This document shows positions 9,317 through 21,156 of a DNA stretch of 21,269 nt, one piece after another (the stretch's first letter is position 1; every line of letters starts with the position of its first letter). The DNA comes from a virus. The notes under the pieces were generated by a model, which was not told the origin of the DNA, ran no database searches, and worked only from the letters and a program-made list of their open reading frames with translations. Position numbers and translations under genes: made by a program. The stretch lies in the IMG/VR virus record IMGVR_UViG_3300048635_000111, positions 1 through 21,269 of that record, one strand, 5' to 3'.

Positions 9317-9398
9317 TTTTATTTTATATTACATTTAAATGAAACAATATAAATATTTTTTATAATAAATAAGCTAAATTCTAAATATTTAGCATGGA

Positions 9399-9710
9399 TT
9401 TTAAATCTATCCAAGATTTATTAAAATAGCATATATAACCCTCTTGTAACTCTATTATAACCTATACTGAAACCCCTATTTTATGGGGTTGTAACCCTTG
9501 TAACCTTATTTTTTATAAATTAAAAATAAATAAATCTCCATATAGTTTTATAAAGATAAAAGAATATATACAGATATATATAAACTATAAAATGCTAAAA
9601 AGAGGGTTATAACGGTTACAAGCCCATGAAATAATGGTTTCAAAAGGGTTATAAGAGGATTTAAAGGGGTTATAAAGAGGGTTACAAAGCTTGAAAAGCT
9701 ATTTTATACC
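9399..9710 (-). repeat. Mirror-symmetric iteron element, copy 1 (inverted relative to copies 2 and 3)
   Basis: This is the reverse-oriented, diverged copy of the 326-bp element at 17277 and 18576. Relative to those it lacks about 20 bp of iterons near 9445 and has a few substitutions and one-base indels. It keeps both TAACC arrays, both arm hairpins (CCCCTATTTTATGGGG and CCATTATTTCATGG) and the AT-rich core. Similarity to copy 3 continues weakly for about 30 bp beyond the right edge. It fills most of the gene-free stretch between the sheath operon and the small ORF at 9832. Copy 1 also contains an 11-codon ORF, 9394-9429, encoding MDFKSIQDLLK; copy 3 has an equivalent. Confidence 0.9.
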
Positions 9711-9786
9711 ATCTTATGCTTTTTATATGGAGTTGAGAGTAATTTTATATTTTTACAAAATATTTTTATAAATTTTACATTTAATC

Positions 9787-10229: not shown

Positions 10230-11507
10230 TTAAGTTACTGTTAGATTTACTATTGCAATACTATCATCATTGATAGAAATATCATTGTTAGGGTCAATAT
10301 CAAAACTAATAACTTTTGTATTATCATTAGGATTATAGATATTATATATGAATGCTTTTAATTTATCAATTAAAATATCTTCTCCCATATCTAAGGAGTT
10401 AATATAATATATAGTATTAATTCTAACCAATTCTTTAAAATCTTGAATACTTGGTATAAGATTTGTAATATCAATATTAATTTCTTGTTGATTTGGGTTT
10501 AATACTTCATAATCACTTAAATTTATTGGTTTAATGGTCTCTATAAACTCTTTAATACTATTTATAGTTGAATCTGATACCAAATAATTAGTAGCATTAT
10601 CATTTACAACATAAATATATATAATTGCGTTATCTCTATCAAACTTAATAAAAACCCTTGTGACATCTGAAAACTTATTTAAAATTTGAGATTTGATAAA
10701 ATTCTCATTAAAAAAAGCTTGAGGAGTTCTAATATAATCTAAAAATCTTAATCTAAATTGCTCTAAAGTTTCATTATCTTTTCCACCGTAAAGAGAATTA
10801 AAATTAACTGCACTTTGATTTATATCTACATTATCGTTATCTAATTTGAAATAAGGGTTTAAATTATATTTACTTCCAATTTCTAAAGCTTCAATATCTC
10901 CATAACCAATATTTAAAGATATTTCAATATCTGTTAAAGAGTCTTCATTTTCATTAGCATTATCTATAATAAATTTAATTTTATAATCATCTAATATTGA
11001 TATTTGCCAAGTTCCATCAAAAGTATTATCATCTGAATTTTTAATATCTATAATCAAATCATTTATTAGATTATGTCTAGTTTTAAATGTTAAAATAGCC
11101 TCTTTTTCATTTGAAACTAGGCTATCTAAGTTATCATTATCTAAAATCTTTTTATCTATAATTGTGCTATCTAATAGTTTATATTGCAAATCTAAATAAT
11201 AAAATATCTCTCCACTATTTATTTCTTTTGGGACTTCATCACTAGATAAAACTATTACCCCTTTAGCTTTAAAACCATTTAAAGGCTTAATTCTTTCTTG
11301 TGCTTGTAGTTGGAGATGTTCTAAATCTGCTGTATGTGCAAATGTTTGTAGAATTAAATTATTAAAATCTCTATAAACCCTATATAAACCAAATGCAAAG
11401 GTGTTTATTAAGTAAGAGAGAAAGCTATTTTTTTCAACCTTAATATTAAATTCATCATTCATTTTATTTTTTAAATTCTCAATAATTAAAGAGTAATCAA
11501 AATTCAT
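10230..11507 (-). CDS. Baseplate J-like protein (Mu gp47 type)
   Basis: A 425-residue baseplate wedge protein, following the gp46-like gene as in Mu. The N-terminal segment SYLINTFAFGLYRVYRDFNN and the following ADLEHLQLQAQERIKPLNGF match the family start, where a helical domain ends in an L-D-x-x-A-x-x-x-G-x-x-R motif. It leads to a beta segment, KAKGVIVLSSDEVPKEINSG, the A-x-G-x-V-x-F and I-P-x-G core of the Baseplate_J domain. Residues ~238-270 (SLYGGKDNETLEQFRLRFLD) contain the G-G-x-D-x-E-S/T-x-x-x-x-R-x-R hallmark. The strand-rich C-terminal part would sit toward the baseplate rim. AAAGGAT precedes the start. Confidence 0.9.
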   Translation of the reverse strand: MNFDYSLIIENLKNKMNDEFNIKVEKNSFLSYLINTFAFGLYRVYRDFNNLILQTFAHTADLEHLQLQAQERIKPLNGFKAKGVIVLSSDEVPKEINSGEIFYYLDLQYKLLDSTIIDKKILDNDNLDSLVSNEKEAILTFKTRHNLINDLIIDIKNSDDNTFDGTWQISILDDYKIKFIIDNANENEDSLTDIEISLNIGYGDIEALEIGSKYNLNPYFKLDNDNVDINQSAVNFNSLYGGKDNETLEQFRLRFLDYIRTPQAFFNENFIKSQILNKFSDVTRVFIKFDRDNAIIYIYVVNDNATNYLVSDSTINSIKEFIETIKPINLSDYEVLNPNQQEINIDITNLIPSIQDFKELVRINTIYYINSLDMGEDILIDKLKAFIYNIYNPNDNTKVISFDIDPNNDISINDDSIAIVNLTVT

Positions 11508-14448: not shown

Positions 14449-14477
14449 TTGACATTTAAAATATTTAATGTTTCAAT
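14449..14477 (+). promoter_or_regulatory. Promoter of the plus-strand accessory cassette
   Basis: TTGACA at 14449-14454, a 17-bp spacer and TTCAAT at 14472-14477 with a TG one base upstream (extended -10). The 16-bp motif ATTTTATTGTAATATT, also found at 9801, ends 11 bp before the -35 box. GTTTC and GAAAC (14470-14487) form a short dyad around the start point. Confidence 0.5.
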
Positions 14478-14510
14478 ACAAAGAAACAATTAAATTGAAA
14501 GGATTTAAAC

Positions 14511-14918
14511 ATGAATAAAATAAATGCATATCATGTAAAAAGAGTAGATTTAAAAATAAATTTAGATTTATATATAATAAAATTAGATGATATGAGGCTT
14601 AAACTACCTCACAATATAAATAAATTAGCAGAAGATAAAAGGTGTAAAATAATAAGTGAGCATATTGCTAAGATATATTCTATTGTTTCAGATGAAAATC
14701 CTAATAGATTAATAGCTATTTTTAGAGATGAGACTTTAGAAAAATATCTAAAATTAAATGAAGATATTTTAAAAGATGTTTGGAATGAAAAAAGAATAGA
14801 CACTTATAAATTTATTTTAGGTGTGTTTGAGAGAAATTTTAAATATCATTTATATCAAGGTAATGAATTAAAATATAGATTAAATAAATTTGATTGGGTT
14901 TATGAAAGTATAAATTAA
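14511..14918 (+). CDS. Hypothetical protein, first gene of an accessory cassette
   Basis: A 135-residue protein read against the flanking structural operons, with its own promoter and GAAAGGAT before the ATG. It is mostly helical and charged, with regular stretches such as KLAEDKRCKIISEHIAKIYS and KFILGVFERNFKYHLYQGNE. It has no signal peptide, membrane segment or recognisable catalytic motif. Isolation on the opposite strand with private promoter and terminator marks it as a moron-type gene, expressed apart from the late genes. Candidate roles are superinfection exclusion, anti-defence or regulation; none can be chosen from sequence. Confidence 0.65.
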   Translation: MNKINAYHVKRVDLKINLDLYIIKLDDMRLKLPHNINKLAEDKRCKIISEHIAKIYSIVSDENPNRLIAIFRDETLEKYLKLNEDILKDVWNEKRIDTYKFILGVFERNFKYHLYQGNELKYRLNKFDWVYESIN

Positions 14919-17276: not shown

Positions 17277-17602
17277 AAAATAGCTTTTCAAGCTTTGTAA
17301 CCCTCTTTATAACCCCTTTAAATCCTCTTATAACCCTTTTGAAACCATTATTTCATGGGCTTGTAACCGTTATAACCCTCTTTTTAGCATTTTATAGTTT
17401 ATATATATCTGCATATATTCTTTTATCTCTTTTAAAACTATATGGAGATTTATTTATTTTTAATTTATAAAAAATAAGGTTACAAGGGTTACACCCCATA
17501 AAATAGGGGTTTCAGTATAGGTTATAAGAGGGTTATAAGAGGGTTACAAAATTAAAAAGAGGGTTATATATGCTATTTTAATAAATCTTGGATAGATTTA
17601 AA
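17277..17602 (+). repeat. Mirror-symmetric iteron element, copy 2
   Basis: 326 bp identical to 18576-18901. The left arm has TAACC motifs in near-helical spacing, TGAAACC, a CCATTATTTCATGG hairpin, then GTAACC and TAACC. A core of about 100 bp almost without G or C follows. The right arm repeats the same order in inverted orientation: GGTTACA twice, CCCCATAAAATAGGGG hairpin, GGTTTCA, then GGTTATAAGAG units with an 11-bp period. The right end is AAATCTTGGATAGATTT, a 6-bp dyad around TGGAT. Here that end codes the last eight residues of the tail hub gene. It occupies nearly all the gene-free space between thyX and the hub gene. Confidence 0.95.
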
Positions 17603-18447
17603 TCAAAATCAAAGTTATCTCTATCTATTTGCAGATTAAAGGAGATTATTTTAAATCTTCCTTGAACCTCATTAAAATTTATATTGATAGCTCTATTCAA
17701 ATTTAAAAGGTTTTCATCAAAATTACAATTTAATATTAATTGAACCTCATCAAGCATATTTTTATAGTTTAAATTATTTTCAATAGTTTTAACGCTATTT
17801 TTAGATAATCTAAAATTACTATAAATAGCATTGCTATAATCTGCTAATTTTGAATTAATACTATAACAGGTTTTAAAATTATTAAAATTACTATTACCAA
17901 ATATATAACTATTATTTTCAATCACATTTTCAATTATTTCTAACTCATTATAAGAGTTTAAATCTAATAGAGATGTATTATAGTTTAAATTATCCAAAAT
18001 AAGAGAGTTTTTATTAGTAATCAATACTAACCCATGTAATGCAAATAAAACATCTAAAAAGGCTTTTAAATTGGTTGTAGGATATATAATTATATCTTCA
18101 TCAAATAGTAATATTTTATTAGTATTATCTTTTATTGGCACATTCAATAAATCTTTTAATAGAGATGAGATTTTATACCCCTTATTAAACATTTTAACTT
18201 GTGTAAATCTATATTGATTTATTAAATATTTTCTACTAAATGCAAAATATTTAAACTCTTTTCTATCTTTTTTATATATCTTATGGGAGTTATAAACTGT
18301 ATATACTTTATTATAAAAATTTACCTCTGCTTTCAAAGGCAATTTATAATCTGTTTCAAACTCTAACATTTCTATATTATTAAAAATACCTCCATTGCAT
18401 TTTAAAGAGGTAAAATTAACCTCATCATTATTATAAAATATCATCAT
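17578..18447 (-). CDS. Probable tail hub protein (Mu gp44/gpD type)
   Basis: A 289-residue protein that probably forms the ring joining tube to baseplate and spike. Evidence is a mid-protein pattern of the family: GYKISSLLKDLLNVPIKDNT, then YPTTNLKAFLDVLFALHGLV and NKNSLILDNL, comparable to the hub segment in which a short helix and N-P/V turn lead to an F-L-x-x-L-x-x-x-x-G-L-x-L motif. The rest is strand-rich. The first ATG is used because AAGGAT sits seven bases before it; that site is part of the 81-bp inverted repeat shared with the gene at 19009. The last eight residues (DLNLSKIY) are encoded by the end of element copy 2. The gene is enclosed by identical direct copies of the element. 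Confidence 0.5.
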   Translation of the reverse strand: MMIFYNNDEVNFTSLKCNGGIFNNIEMLEFETDYKLPLKAEVNFYNKVYTVYNSHKIYKKDRKEFKYFAFSRKYLINQYRFTQVKMFNKGYKISSLLKDLLNVPIKDNTNKILLFDEDIIIYPTTNLKAFLDVLFALHGLVLITNKNSLILDNLNYNTSLLDLNSYNELEIIENVIENNSYIFGNSNFNNFKTCYSINSKLADYSNAIYSNFRLSKNSVKTIENNLNYKNMLDEVQLILNCNFDENLLNLNRAININFNEVQGRFKIISFNLQIDRDNFDFDLNLSKIY

Positions 18448-18575: not shown

Positions 18576-18901
18576 AAAATAGCTTTTCAAGCTTTGTAAC
18601 CCTCTTTATAACCCCTTTAAATCCTCTTATAACCCTTTTGAAACCATTATTTCATGGGCTTGTAACCGTTATAACCCTCTTTTTAGCATTTTATAGTTTA
18701 TATATATCTGCATATATTCTTTTATCTCTTTTAAAACTATATGGAGATTTATTTATTTTTAATTTATAAAAAATAAGGTTACAAGGGTTACACCCCATAA
18801 AATAGGGGTTTCAGTATAGGTTATAAGAGGGTTATAAGAGGGTTACAAAATTAAAAAGAGGGTTATATATGCTATTTTAATAAATCTTGGATAGATTTAA
18901 A
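18576..18901 (+). repeat. Mirror-symmetric iteron element, copy 3
   Basis: Identical over its full 326 bp to copy 2, in the same orientation, and placed between the two arms of an 81-bp inverted repeat. Its arrays, hairpins and AT-rich core are as in copy 2. On the minus strand the right end gives an 11-codon ORF, MSFKSIQDLLK, parallel to that of copy 1. The remaining gene-free bases of this intergenic region (18527-18575 and 18902-18923) are AT-rich filler in which I see nothing further, apart from residual similarity of the left flank to the flank of copy 1. Confidence 0.95.
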
Positions 18902-18923
18902 ACTCATTGCATATTAATTTATA

Positions 18924-19008: not shown

Positions 19009-20166
19009 ATGCTAAATATAACCAAGATAGAAAATATAGAGATAAAACAATTAGATACATCTTTATCAAGTGCTAATAAATATCAAGATAAAGACCAAAT
19101 AAAAAAGGGTAAAAATACAATTGCAGATTTAGGAGAGGGTAAAAAAGCTTTGCAAACTACTTTTATAATTGAAGATGAAAACATATTTACAAAAGTATTT
19201 AAGATTATATCCAAAAAGAGATATGTAATGTTTACTGATAAATTTTATGGTAAATTTAAAGCATTTATTACAAGTTATAATATTAAGGGTTCAGATTCTC
19301 ACATAGGATATATGCTAATAGAATTGAATCTAAAAATAATTGAAGATATAGACCTCTCAATTAATTTCAAATCAAGATTAAAAAACTTTTCAAACCAATT
19401 AAAAGATTTTAAAGTAAGAGAGCATGTGATTAATTTTGATAATAAAATTATTGAAAATAATATTAATCCTCTAACTTTAACCCAAATAAAAGATTTGCCA
19501 TTAAGTCAAACATATAATAAGAGTTATGATTATGTGCAATTAGATTATAACTCTAAAGTAAATGATTTTATGCAATATTGCTTTAATAATTATAATTTTG
19601 ATAGTTCAATAGAGTTTTCAAAAATGAAACTTATTTTTGAAAGCATTGATATTTTTAATCAAGATATTTCTATGGTTTTTGAACTATTGGATTTAAATTT
19701 TAAATCTATCAAACCTATTAAGGATTATCCTTATATCTTGCAAGGGGATATAAAATCTATAAATAATATTTGGAGTATTGAAAATATTATCAATAGTAAT
19801 ATAAATTTAAACACAATTGCAATTATAAATTTATACTTATATATATTTATAAATAAAATGATTATAAGTGATTTAGATAGATTAAATTTAAGTAGATTAA
19901 CTATTGCTTTAATTGATAGAATTTTAAATACTCCAATATTAAATTTAGATAGTTTAAATATTGATTATTATCTAATTAGAAATGATATAGTTAATTATTA
20001 TGAGGCTAACAGTTATAAGGAGTTAGAAATAATTCACAATCCTTTAAACATTGATTATTTTGCATATAAAGAGTATAAAGATTTAAATATGAGTGAGAAT
20101 TTAAAATATATAAATAATTTAAATATAGAAATAATTGCTATTGGAAATAAATTTAAATATATTTAA
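19009..20166 (+). CDS. Probable DNA-circularisation (N)-like tail protein
   Basis: A 385-residue protein divergent from the hub gene. The N-terminal ~110 residues fit the DNA_circ_N domain of Mu gp43-type tail proteins: a G-E-G-x-x-A/R-L-Q-x-x-F strand (GEGKKALQTTFIIEDENIFT), an I-x-x-x-R segment, a Y-G-x-x-x-A-x-I strand (KFYGKFKAFITSYNIKGSDS) and a final L-I-E-L-N-L-K-I-I-E strand. After residue ~130 it is an Asn/Ile-rich helical region without a known domain. In Mu the N gene lies directly before the hub gene on the same strand; here they face away with identical upstream sequences. Name and role rest on the N-terminal pattern and on the neighbouring hub candidate. Confidence 0.5.
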   Translation: MLNITKIENIEIKQLDTSLSSANKYQDKDQIKKGKNTIADLGEGKKALQTTFIIEDENIFTKVFKIISKKRYVMFTDKFYGKFKAFITSYNIKGSDSHIGYMLIELNLKIIEDIDLSINFKSRLKNFSNQLKDFKVREHVINFDNKIIENNINPLTLTQIKDLPLSQTYNKSYDYVQLDYNSKVNDFMQYCFNNYNFDSSIEFSKMKLIFESIDIFNQDISMVFELLDLNFKSIKPIKDYPYILQGDIKSINNIWSIENIINSNINLNTIAIINLYLYIFINKMIISDLDRLNLSRLTIALIDRILNTPILNLDSLNIDYYLIRNDIVNYYEANSYKELEIIHNPLNIDYFAYKEYKDLNMSENLKYINNLNIEIIAIGNKFKYI

Positions 20167-20175
20167 CATTTTTAA

Positions 20176-20204
20176 TTGACAAATAAAAATTTTTAATATA
20201 TAAT
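20176..20204 (+). promoter_or_regulatory. Consensus sigma-70 promoter of the candidate RNA
   Basis: TTGACA (20176-20181), exactly 17 bp, TATAAT (20199-20204): both hexamers are perfect. This is the strongest promoter in the window. A start about seven bases on, near 20211, is almost exactly where the closing stem of the candidate RNA begins. Confidence 0.85.
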
Positions 20205-20210
20205 TATTGC

Positions 20211-20354
20211 ATGTTTAAAGTTTGGGGGCTGAAATTAAATCCTTTCAATTTATTAGTTAAATCTACAAGAACGATTTTATCTAACTATTTATTTTAATTT
20301 CTACAACAATACAACTATTAGCTGAAATAAAACCCTAAACTTTAAACTTTTATT
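20211..20354 (+). ncRNA. Candidate structured RNA, about 140 nt
   Basis: Between the N-like gene and the ORF at 20434 lies a non-coding segment with a clear fold. P1: GTTTAAAGTTTGGGG (20213-20227) pairs with CCCTAAACTTTAAAC (20333-20347), 15 bp with one G-U. P2: GAAATTAAA (20231-20239) with TTTAATTTC (20293-20301), 9 bp. P3: TAGTTA (20254-20259) with TAACTA (20282-20287), capped by a smaller AATC/GATT helix. GCTGAAAT occurs twice, beside each strand of P1. The 3' end is TTTTATT, which with P1 would terminate transcription. The segment is richer in G and C at the stem than anything nearby. It matches no RNA family I recognise; it may be an independent small RNA or the first domain of a leader. 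Confidence 0.6.
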
Positions 20355-20386
20355 CTCCTTTACTCCTATCTAAACAGTTAAAAGTA

Positions 20387-20435
20387 ATTACAAATCTTTT
20401 TTTATATAATTATATAAATTAAAAAGGTTTGTAAT
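20387..20435 (+). promoter_or_regulatory. Hairpin sequestering the ribosome binding site and start of the next gene
   Basis: ATTACAAATCTTTTT (20387-20401) pairs over all 15 positions (one U-G) with AAAAAGGTTTGTAAT (20421-20435), around a 19-nt AT loop. The 3' strand contains the AAAAAGG Shine-Dalgarno and the first two bases of the ATG at 20434, so translation should be blocked while the stem is closed. Confidence 0.7.
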
Positions 20436-21156
20436 GATTTTAAATATATGTGATATTTTAAAAGCAAAATTAAAATGTGAAAATATAAAATTATTTTCTG
20501 ATTTAAAAGCAAGTAGTAATATATTAAATATTATAAATGGCTCATTTAATTTTAATAATTTTGATGGAGTTGAAAATAAATATTATAGATTATGCTCTAA
20601 TTTAAATAGTGATGAAGATTGTTTAAATATGCAAGTTGGAACAGAAAATATTTTTACCTATCTTCCATTTAATGAAAACTTTTTTTATACTCCATACAAG
20701 TATTTAAATGCAGAATTAAGAGGAGAATTTTATCTATATGATAATCTTAGAATATTAAATATTATAGATGAGGTTCAAGCTTTTGAGATGTTTAAAAAGT
20801 CTCCTAATAATTATATTTTTATCATGATAGATAAAATAAATTATAAAGATTTTGGAAAGGGTTTGATACAACAGCAAATTAATTTTAAAGTGCTTTTATA
20901 TCTCTATGAGATTGCAAGATTTAATTTAAATGCAAACTCTTTTTATGCTATTGAGAGTGATATTTTATCTATTTTATATAAATTAAAAATATATCCAATA
21001 AATAGTGATTTTAAATGGAGTAGTGATAAAACTATAATAAGAGAAATAAATTTTAAATATTTGAGTGATAGTTTAGAAGTTAATAATATTTGTGATAGTA
21101 GAATGTTTGATTTTGAAATAGATATAAATGAGTGTAAACCTATTATAGATATATAA
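20434..21156 (+). CDS. Unrecognised protein, probably structural
   Basis: A 240-residue protein following the N-like gene and candidate RNA on the same strand. It is mixed alpha/beta. Residues ~70-100 are aromatic (TYLPFNENFFYTPYKYLNAE), the middle has a strand pair (NNYIFIMIDKINYKDFGKGL), and a segment around 155-185 is helical (LLYLYEIARFNLNANSFYAI). It contains four or five cysteines in the N-terminal third and two near the C-terminus, more than its neighbours. There is no membrane segment or enzyme motif. In contractile phages a gene beside N often encodes a tail completion or terminator protein, which this could be, but no family match is visible. Its start codon lies in a stable hairpin, so expression is probably controlled at translation. 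Confidence 0.55.
   Translation: MILNICDILKAKLKCENIKLFSDLKASSNILNIINGSFNFNNFDGVENKYYRLCSNLNSDEDCLNMQVGTENIFTYLPFNENFFYTPYKYLNAELRGEFYLYDNLRILNIIDEVQAFEMFKKSPNNYIFIMIDKINYKDFGKGLIQQQINFKVLLYLYEIARFNLNANSFYAIESDILSILYKLKIYPINSDFKWSSDKTIIREINFKYLSDSLEVNNICDSRMFDFEIDINECKPIIDI

Follow-up and report, generated by a model that had tools for sequence, protein, structure and literature searches.

The window (the whole stretch of 21,269 nucleotides analysed here) is a 21.3-kb fragment of a phage with 22% GC, and its portal, capsid, sheath, and MuF-like genes indicate a contractile tail. Because the closest matches of its ThyX are Campylobacter phages, the host is, judging from sequence, likely but unproven to be a member of the Campylobacterota. 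Protein-level relatives comprise, in IMG/VR, only a 48-kb phage (G1; contigs L015–L017), a 12-kb fragment (G2; L018), and the distant L020, and in genome_contigs none; G1 and G2 were used as relatives here. The capsid proteins of G1 and G2 are 68–69% identical to that of the window, and other proteins of the window phage and G1 are 30–69% identical. The locus contains the following features:

20176..20204 (+): sigma-70-type promoter, TTGACA-17-TATAAT
20211..20354 (+): proposed RNA, about 144 nt, from a presumed start at TATAAT +7 to a presumed end at the U-rich tail
20213..20227 (+): 5′ arm of the closing stem P1, GUUUAAAGUUUGGGG
20230..20247 (+): inner hairpin UGAAA/UUUCA with an 8-nt loop, UUAAAUCC (20235–20242)
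20235..20252 (+): antisense-RBS tract, UUAAAUCCUUUCAAUUUA
20333..20347 (+): 3′ arm of P1, CCCUAAACUUUAAAC
20348..20354 (+): U-rich tail, UUUUAUU (in the G1 counterpart, AUGUUUUUAU past the 3′ arm)
20387..20435 (+): predicted hairpin masking the Shine-Dalgarno sequence (20421–20427) and start codon of gene 20434, from its fold and opening cost
20405..20410 (+): TATAAT without −35 box, proposed own late-type promoter of gene 20434, inside the hairpin
20434..21156 (+): downstream gene, 240 aa

Promoter, closing stem, and presumed RNA ends

The promoter matches the consensus at all 12 positions (TTGACA at 20176–20181, a 17-nt spacer, and TATAAT at 20199–20204), as the original prediction had stated, and is the only 12/12 match in the window (P = 0.0003 for such a match in a random stretch of 56 positions). 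On the minus strand at the element, the best promoter reaches only 9/12. TATAAT without a −35 box lies 22–40 nt 5′ of the ATG of many genes with an intergenic gap in the window and G1, and TTGAC-type promoters are rare (20176 in the window; 23458 and 45181 in G1, with TTGAAA at 10614), a distribution in sequence that suggests the use of two promoter classes by both phages. A further perfect TTGACA-17-TATAAT in G1 (L016:2886–2914) is antisense within the primase gene, and an ATG 4 nt past its TATAAT opens a 36-codon hydrophobic ORF.

Directly behind the promoter, GTTTAAAGTTTGGGG (20213–20227) pairs with CCCTAAACTTTAAAC (20333–20347) through 14 Watson-Crick pairs and 1 G-U pair, with 105 nt between the arms and pair probabilities of about 1.0, confirming the predicted 15-bp closing stem. 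The further claim that this stem is unlikely by chance holds for its position but not genome-wide: when the window was shuffled 20 times, the median of the best stem scores was about equal to the P1 score of 34, with about one such stem expected per shuffled 21-kb sequence, whereas its placement directly behind the sole perfect promoter has P about 0.0005. The fold of the element has a z-score of −3.2, and 1 of 200 shuffles was equally stable.

The inner helices are weak (pair probabilities of 0.3–0.8), and the predicted 9-bp helix P2 with its enclosed hairpin P3 is not supported. The best-supported inner feature is the 5-bp hairpin at 20230–20247 (pair probability 0.7–0.8), which presents the anti-Shine-Dalgarno seed UUAAAUCC as its loop (unpaired 0.84–1.0). 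The predicted repeat beside each arm of P1 is real, with copies of GCTGAAAT at 20228–20235 and 20321–20328; it is given no weight, because it was not found in the G1 RNA described below. A CRISPR-repeat mimic was dropped, since the copies have no longer repeat in common; a retron and transposon ends were likewise dropped, with no reverse transcriptase seen in this fragment and no target duplication seen.

The U-rich end is present as TTTTATT at 20348–20354, but a consensus scan revealed no canonical terminator at the 3′ end of the RNA. Directly past P1, a pyrimidine-rich segment (20352–20369; UUCUCCUUUACUCCUAUC) complements AAAGGAG-type Shine-Dalgarno sequences and, as read from the sequence, is a possible second anti-Shine-Dalgarno segment if the transcript is longer. 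Rfam searches of the element, at gathering score and again with E values allowed up to 10, yielded no credible match and no riboswitch match. Together with the recurrence of the architecture in a second phage, this supports the suggestion of a small regulatory RNA of no known family; for the suggestion of a packaging-type RNA nothing was found in support, and it was dropped.

An antisense copy of the ribosome-binding-site consensus

In a self-search of the window, 20235–20252 matched, in reverse complement, the region where translation of a distant gene starts:

14491..14508 (+): proposed target site, RBS TAAATTGAAAGGATTTAA of gene 14511–14918, from complementarity and interaction energy
14511..14918 (+): proposed target gene, 135 aa, on the plus strand among late minus-strand genes, with TTGACA upstream at 14449

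The match is perfect over 18 nt, and none of 1000 element shuffles reaches 17; apart from an 81-bp inverted duplication, the tract is the only stretch of the window outside translation initiation regions (TIRs) that matches a start region so well. Specifically, AAATCCTTTCAATTT (20237–20251) is the exact antisense of the phage RBS consensus AAATTNAAAGGATT. With accessibility taken into account, the net interaction between the RNA and 14511 is −12.5 kcal/mol, and that of the next target is −7.3 kcal/mol. Since 1 of 60 shuffled-loop controls equalled the duplex energy, the length of the match is stronger evidence than the energy; a duplex test without accessibility was unremarkable. Near-zero gains in cofolding were discarded, because cofolding cannot represent outward pairing by a loop inside P1. 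The seed AAAUCC is unpaired in the folded RNA with probability 0.84–1.0 in the window and 0.89–0.96 in G1. Gene 14511, the best target, lies 5.7 kb from the RNA gene, and its product has no family or phage match; gene 20434 is absent from the best-scoring targets. Both the tract and the RBS-masking hairpin at 20387–20435 are additional to the original prediction.

Across the window, G1, G2, and L020, perfect copies of AAATTNAAAGGATT number 11, all in the first three and none in L020. Eight of the 11 precede the ATG of a gene and one lies inside the tape-measure gene; at these nine gene-associated sites, promoters on the antisense strand reach at most 8–9/12, the background level. The remaining two, at 20251(−) in the window and 10689(−) in G1, are without a gene and lie opposite promoters of 12/12 and 11/12, respectively (probability of a promoter this good at one site, 0.0003 and 0.0013), and the distance from the end of TATAAT to the tract is exactly 33 nt in both. 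The G1 site came from a search for antisense RBSs; the promoter, distance, and stem of the site are outside that selection. A descriptor of the form TATAAT-GGG-tract, composed after both copies had been seen, has 13 matches in IMG/VR, among which only that of G1 has a good −35 box; the 11 other distinct matches are in unrelated contigs and have poor −35 boxes.

A proposed counterpart RNA in a related phage and its predicted targets

The counterpart emerged when G1 was scanned for antisense-RBS sites not associated with a gene. There is one such site, at L015:10677, behind a TTGAAA-17-TATAAT promoter (10614–10642; 11/12):

L015:10649–10772: proposed G1 counterpart RNA, 124 nt, with its own promoter, closing stem, and U-rich tail

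In this RNA, GUGUGGG (10649–10655) pairs with CCCACAC (10756–10762) across a loop of 100 nt, as compared with 105 nt in the window; the CCCACAC partner has P = 0.0012, and none of 3000 shuffles yields any such stem. The pair probability of P1 is at least 0.98 in the 124-nt RNA ending at the U-rich tail (10772), and the fold is modestly stable (z = −1.5); an alternative 17-bp stem (10713–10729/10777–10793) would compete if the transcript were longer. Read from the inner end, the P1 pairs are U-A, U-A, U-A, G-U, G-C, G-C, G-C in the window and G-C, U-A, G-C, U-A, G-C, G-C, G-C in G1, which amounts to three two-sided changes in a register fitted by hand to the structure of two sequences. The original prediction had staked its helices on their conservation in homologues; the one relative found carries a differently spelled, GC-rich P1 with a near-equal loop, but P2/P3 and the repeat are unsupported.

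Sequence comparison links the two RNAs only loosely. The exact P1 pattern was found nowhere else across IMG/VR, and both blastn and a single-sequence covariance model missed the counterpart when run against G1 and G2. Because of the unequal arm lengths, P1 was missed by RNAalifold on a MAFFT alignment of both elements. The plain alignment score is reached by 8 of 1000 shuffles with the promoter and by 71 of 1000 without it, and other stretches of G1 outscore the counterpart against the RNA of the window. Because the plain alignment is weak, common descent is unproven, and architecture rather than sequence identity carries the case for the two RNAs. The similarity of the tracts may represent convergence on one RBS consensus; such convergence, too, would imply function. 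The variable base of the tract is C in the window, where gene 14511 has TTGAAAGG, and A in G1, where starts have TTTAAAGG.

The weak alignment would also be expected if the element were a coincidence, that is, a chance promoter and stem around the relic RBS of a lost minus-strand gene, with no functional RNA. RBS motifs are common in these genomes, and 21 kb of sequence can be expected to hold a P1-like stem. We nevertheless consider this reading somewhat improbable, given that the layout of promoter, 33 nt, and tract recurs in G1 together with a second unlikely stem at a near-equal offset, and that the good −35 box is confined to G1 among the IMG/VR pattern matches.

A different account of the same architecture takes it for a structured mRNA whose leaderless ORF (ATG at 20211, 28 aa, MFKVWGLKLNPFNLLVKSTRTILSNYLF), at the 5′ end of the RNA, encodes a small basic peptide, as in type I toxin mRNAs such as Helicobacter aapA. 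It merits mention because a start codon (ATG in the window, GTG in G1) lies exactly 6 nt past the TATAAT in both phages and opens 28 and 31 codons, respectively. aapA mRNAs are likewise closed by a 5′–3′ long-distance interaction (PMC6733600), and the ThyX suggests a Campylobacterota host. The two peptides, however, share almost nothing beyond the tract, in phages whose other proteins are 30–69% identical; the ORF lacks a Shine-Dalgarno sequence, unlike nearly all genes here; and the exact RBS complementarity of the tract is left unexplained. In further contrast to aapA/IsoA, there is no Shine-Dalgarno-led toxin ORF, no conserved peptide, and no clear promoter for an antisense RNA, and we regard a peptide-encoding function as very improbable.

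The preferred reading, an RNA acting through its antisense-RBS tract, is also consistent with the predicted targets in G1. The G1 RNA has complementarity of 17–25 nt to several gene starts, with energies of −11 to −14.4 kcal/mol at six mostly non-structural ones: those of a Dda-like helicase, a 23-codon leader ORF of the operon that extends to the primase gene, and genes 7132, 26243, 30342, and 45242. Gene 45242 (796 aa, without firm assignment) could be structural. In contrast, energies at the capsid, portal, tube, and sheath starts are −5.9 to +0.7 kcal/mol. The G1 DNA polymerase start has the RBS consensus, but it is self-masked in long transcripts. The putative "early" class of targets is deduced from gene function.

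Gene 20434 and the proposed mode of action

The hairpin at the start of gene 20434 has a predicted opening cost of 14.2 kcal/mol, as compared with a mean of 5.0 (SD 3.5), and ranks 3 of 71 starts. With its Shine-Dalgarno sequence and AUG in a stable hairpin and a predicted promoter that would exclude the 5′ arm, gene 20434 is, on the predicted fold, of the T4 gene-e type. In T4 genes e, soc, and 49, the RBS is masked in long transcripts, and a promoter in or just behind the 5′ arm yields a translatable mRNA (PMC3014915). The design here is the same, but it occurs in another phage group, with TATAAT without a −35 box in place of the T4 late promoter and with initiation probably inside the hairpin. 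Hairpins of this type at RBSs and start codons are also predicted in G1, at L015:8774(−), 8845(+), and 17807(−) and at G1 20105(−); some have TATAAT inside the palindrome, and the DNA polymerase gene is among those affected. The region holds predicted T4-style RBS-masking hairpins in an unrelated phage group.

The promoter at 20176 and gene 20434 are on the same strand with no canonical terminator between them, and, with the strong hairpin at the RBS and AUG, the region could be a structured 5′ leader (riboswitch-like or for timing) in which P1 senses and the hairpin at 20387–20435 is the expression platform. The original prediction had offered such a sensing domain as one possibility; it is disfavoured, and we consider it unlikely. 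A TATAAT of its own lies 23 nt upstream of the ATG of gene 20434, the arrangement found at most genes of the group; similar hairpins are present at further G1 genes that lack such a domain; the G1 homologue of gene 20434 is in a late tail operon without a leader; and no alternative pairing to open the hairpin was seen. The G1 element (10623–10774) occupies the gap that separates the convergent MuF and helicase genes, stop codon to stop codon, with no downstream gene on its strand, and is therefore not a leader.

We therefore favour a trans-acting anti-Shine-Dalgarno RNA that would repress non-structural phage genes, a reading based on the sequence and predicted folds of two genomes, to which we assign a probability of about 0.52. 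From the promoter, P1, tract, complementarity, two-phage architecture, and RBS hairpin found computationally, we infer transcription, RNA ends, repression, and timing as follows. The strong sigma-70 promoter would produce an RNA of ~125–145 nt, closed by P1 and ending in the U-rich tail, whose exposed loop inside P1 would present the exact antisense of the RBS consensus AAATTNAAAGGATT used by a subset of genes. The RNA would cover the Shine-Dalgarno sequences of its target mRNAs (gene 14511 in the window; in G1 the helicase gene, the leader ORF 5′ of the primase gene, and several small genes) and block ribosome entry, while structural genes, which mostly have other RBS contexts, would largely escape. 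Non-structural expression would be lowered, plausibly at the early-to-late shift. The late gene 20434 would be silenced by its RBS hairpin in read-through transcripts from 20176 and translated from mRNAs initiated at the promoter inside the hairpin.

Several known RNAs act in related ways. The C4 RNA of phages P1 and P7 is a structured, trans-acting RNA with loops complementary to a Shine-Dalgarno region; C4 and its target belong to one operon, with C4 upstream, and C4 is released by processing of the operon transcript. The window RNA differs in its distant and apparently several targets and in having no Rfam match; in particular, the C4 covariance model gave none at gathering score or with E values of up to 10. 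In the C-rich-loop (UCCC) sRNAs of Firmicutes, such as RNAIII and RsaE, a pyrimidine-rich loop is the seed against the Shine-Dalgarno sequences of many mRNAs. The window RNA likewise has a pyrimidine-rich anti-Shine-Dalgarno loop, but those sRNAs are host-encoded and have short seeds, whereas the matches in the window and G1 extend over 18–25 nt and follow the RBS consensus of the phage. P22 sar and lambda OOP, in a review's account of them, are short phage RNAs that base-pair with phage mRNAs and so repress the genes concerned; sar blocks initiation of ant translation, the effect of OOP on cII is due in part to RNase III decay, and both are encoded opposite their targets (PMC12197685). The window RNA, in contrast, is encoded away from its target, with complementarity of ~18–25 nt, and matches the RBS consensus of several genes. 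It works like sar, OOP, and C4 in the proposed scheme, yet fits no family definition. The phage sRNAs treated in the relevant sections of that review are directed at single antisense partners or at host RNAs or genes (PMC12197685).

More tentatively, one clamped antisense copy of the RBS might shut off a whole gene class, with RNA and RBS consensus co-evolving between phages, as a regulon-wide RNA counterpart of T4 RegB. RegB is an endoribonuclease that cleaves GGAG and shuts off early mRNAs at the Shine-Dalgarno sequence (PMC3014915); the logical role would be the same, but RegB is a cleaving protein, whereas here an RNA would mask the site. According to the same review, no trans-acting RNA has been functionally characterised in T4 (PMC3014915). 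If the reading is correct, an RNA directed against a class-wide RBS consensus would give a small phage a simple means of switching its entire translation programme, and similar RNAs would be predicted in other phages with a strong RBS consensus; the signature, an easy one to search for, would be an RBS consensus without a start codon, opposite a promoter.

Apart from the RNA, the window phage and G1 each have three near-identical intergenic repeats of 300–500 nt:

9394–9763 (−), 17277–17602 (+), and 18576–18907 (+): window intergenic repeats
L015:2646–3150, L016:13526–14000, and about L016:3450–3932 (reverse): G1 intergenic repeats

The copies are about 98–100% identical within the phage of the window, hardly alignable between phages, and rich in long hairpins and in GGTTAC/GTAACC and GGTTATAA units. 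Close to these repeats, which are possible recombination or inversion sites, an origin, or a common control region, the window and G1 differ in gene order by scrambled blocks. One copy is flanked by a perfect 81-bp inverted repeat (18446–18526/18924–19004), upstream of the divergent genes 17578–18447 and 19009–20166 and including the RBS of both; it could be an invertible segment, a recent duplication, or an assembly artefact. The gene at 3–1157 (−) consists of consecutive 105-nt repeats with diverged copies; its protein, built of 35-residue units, is possibly a tail fibre.
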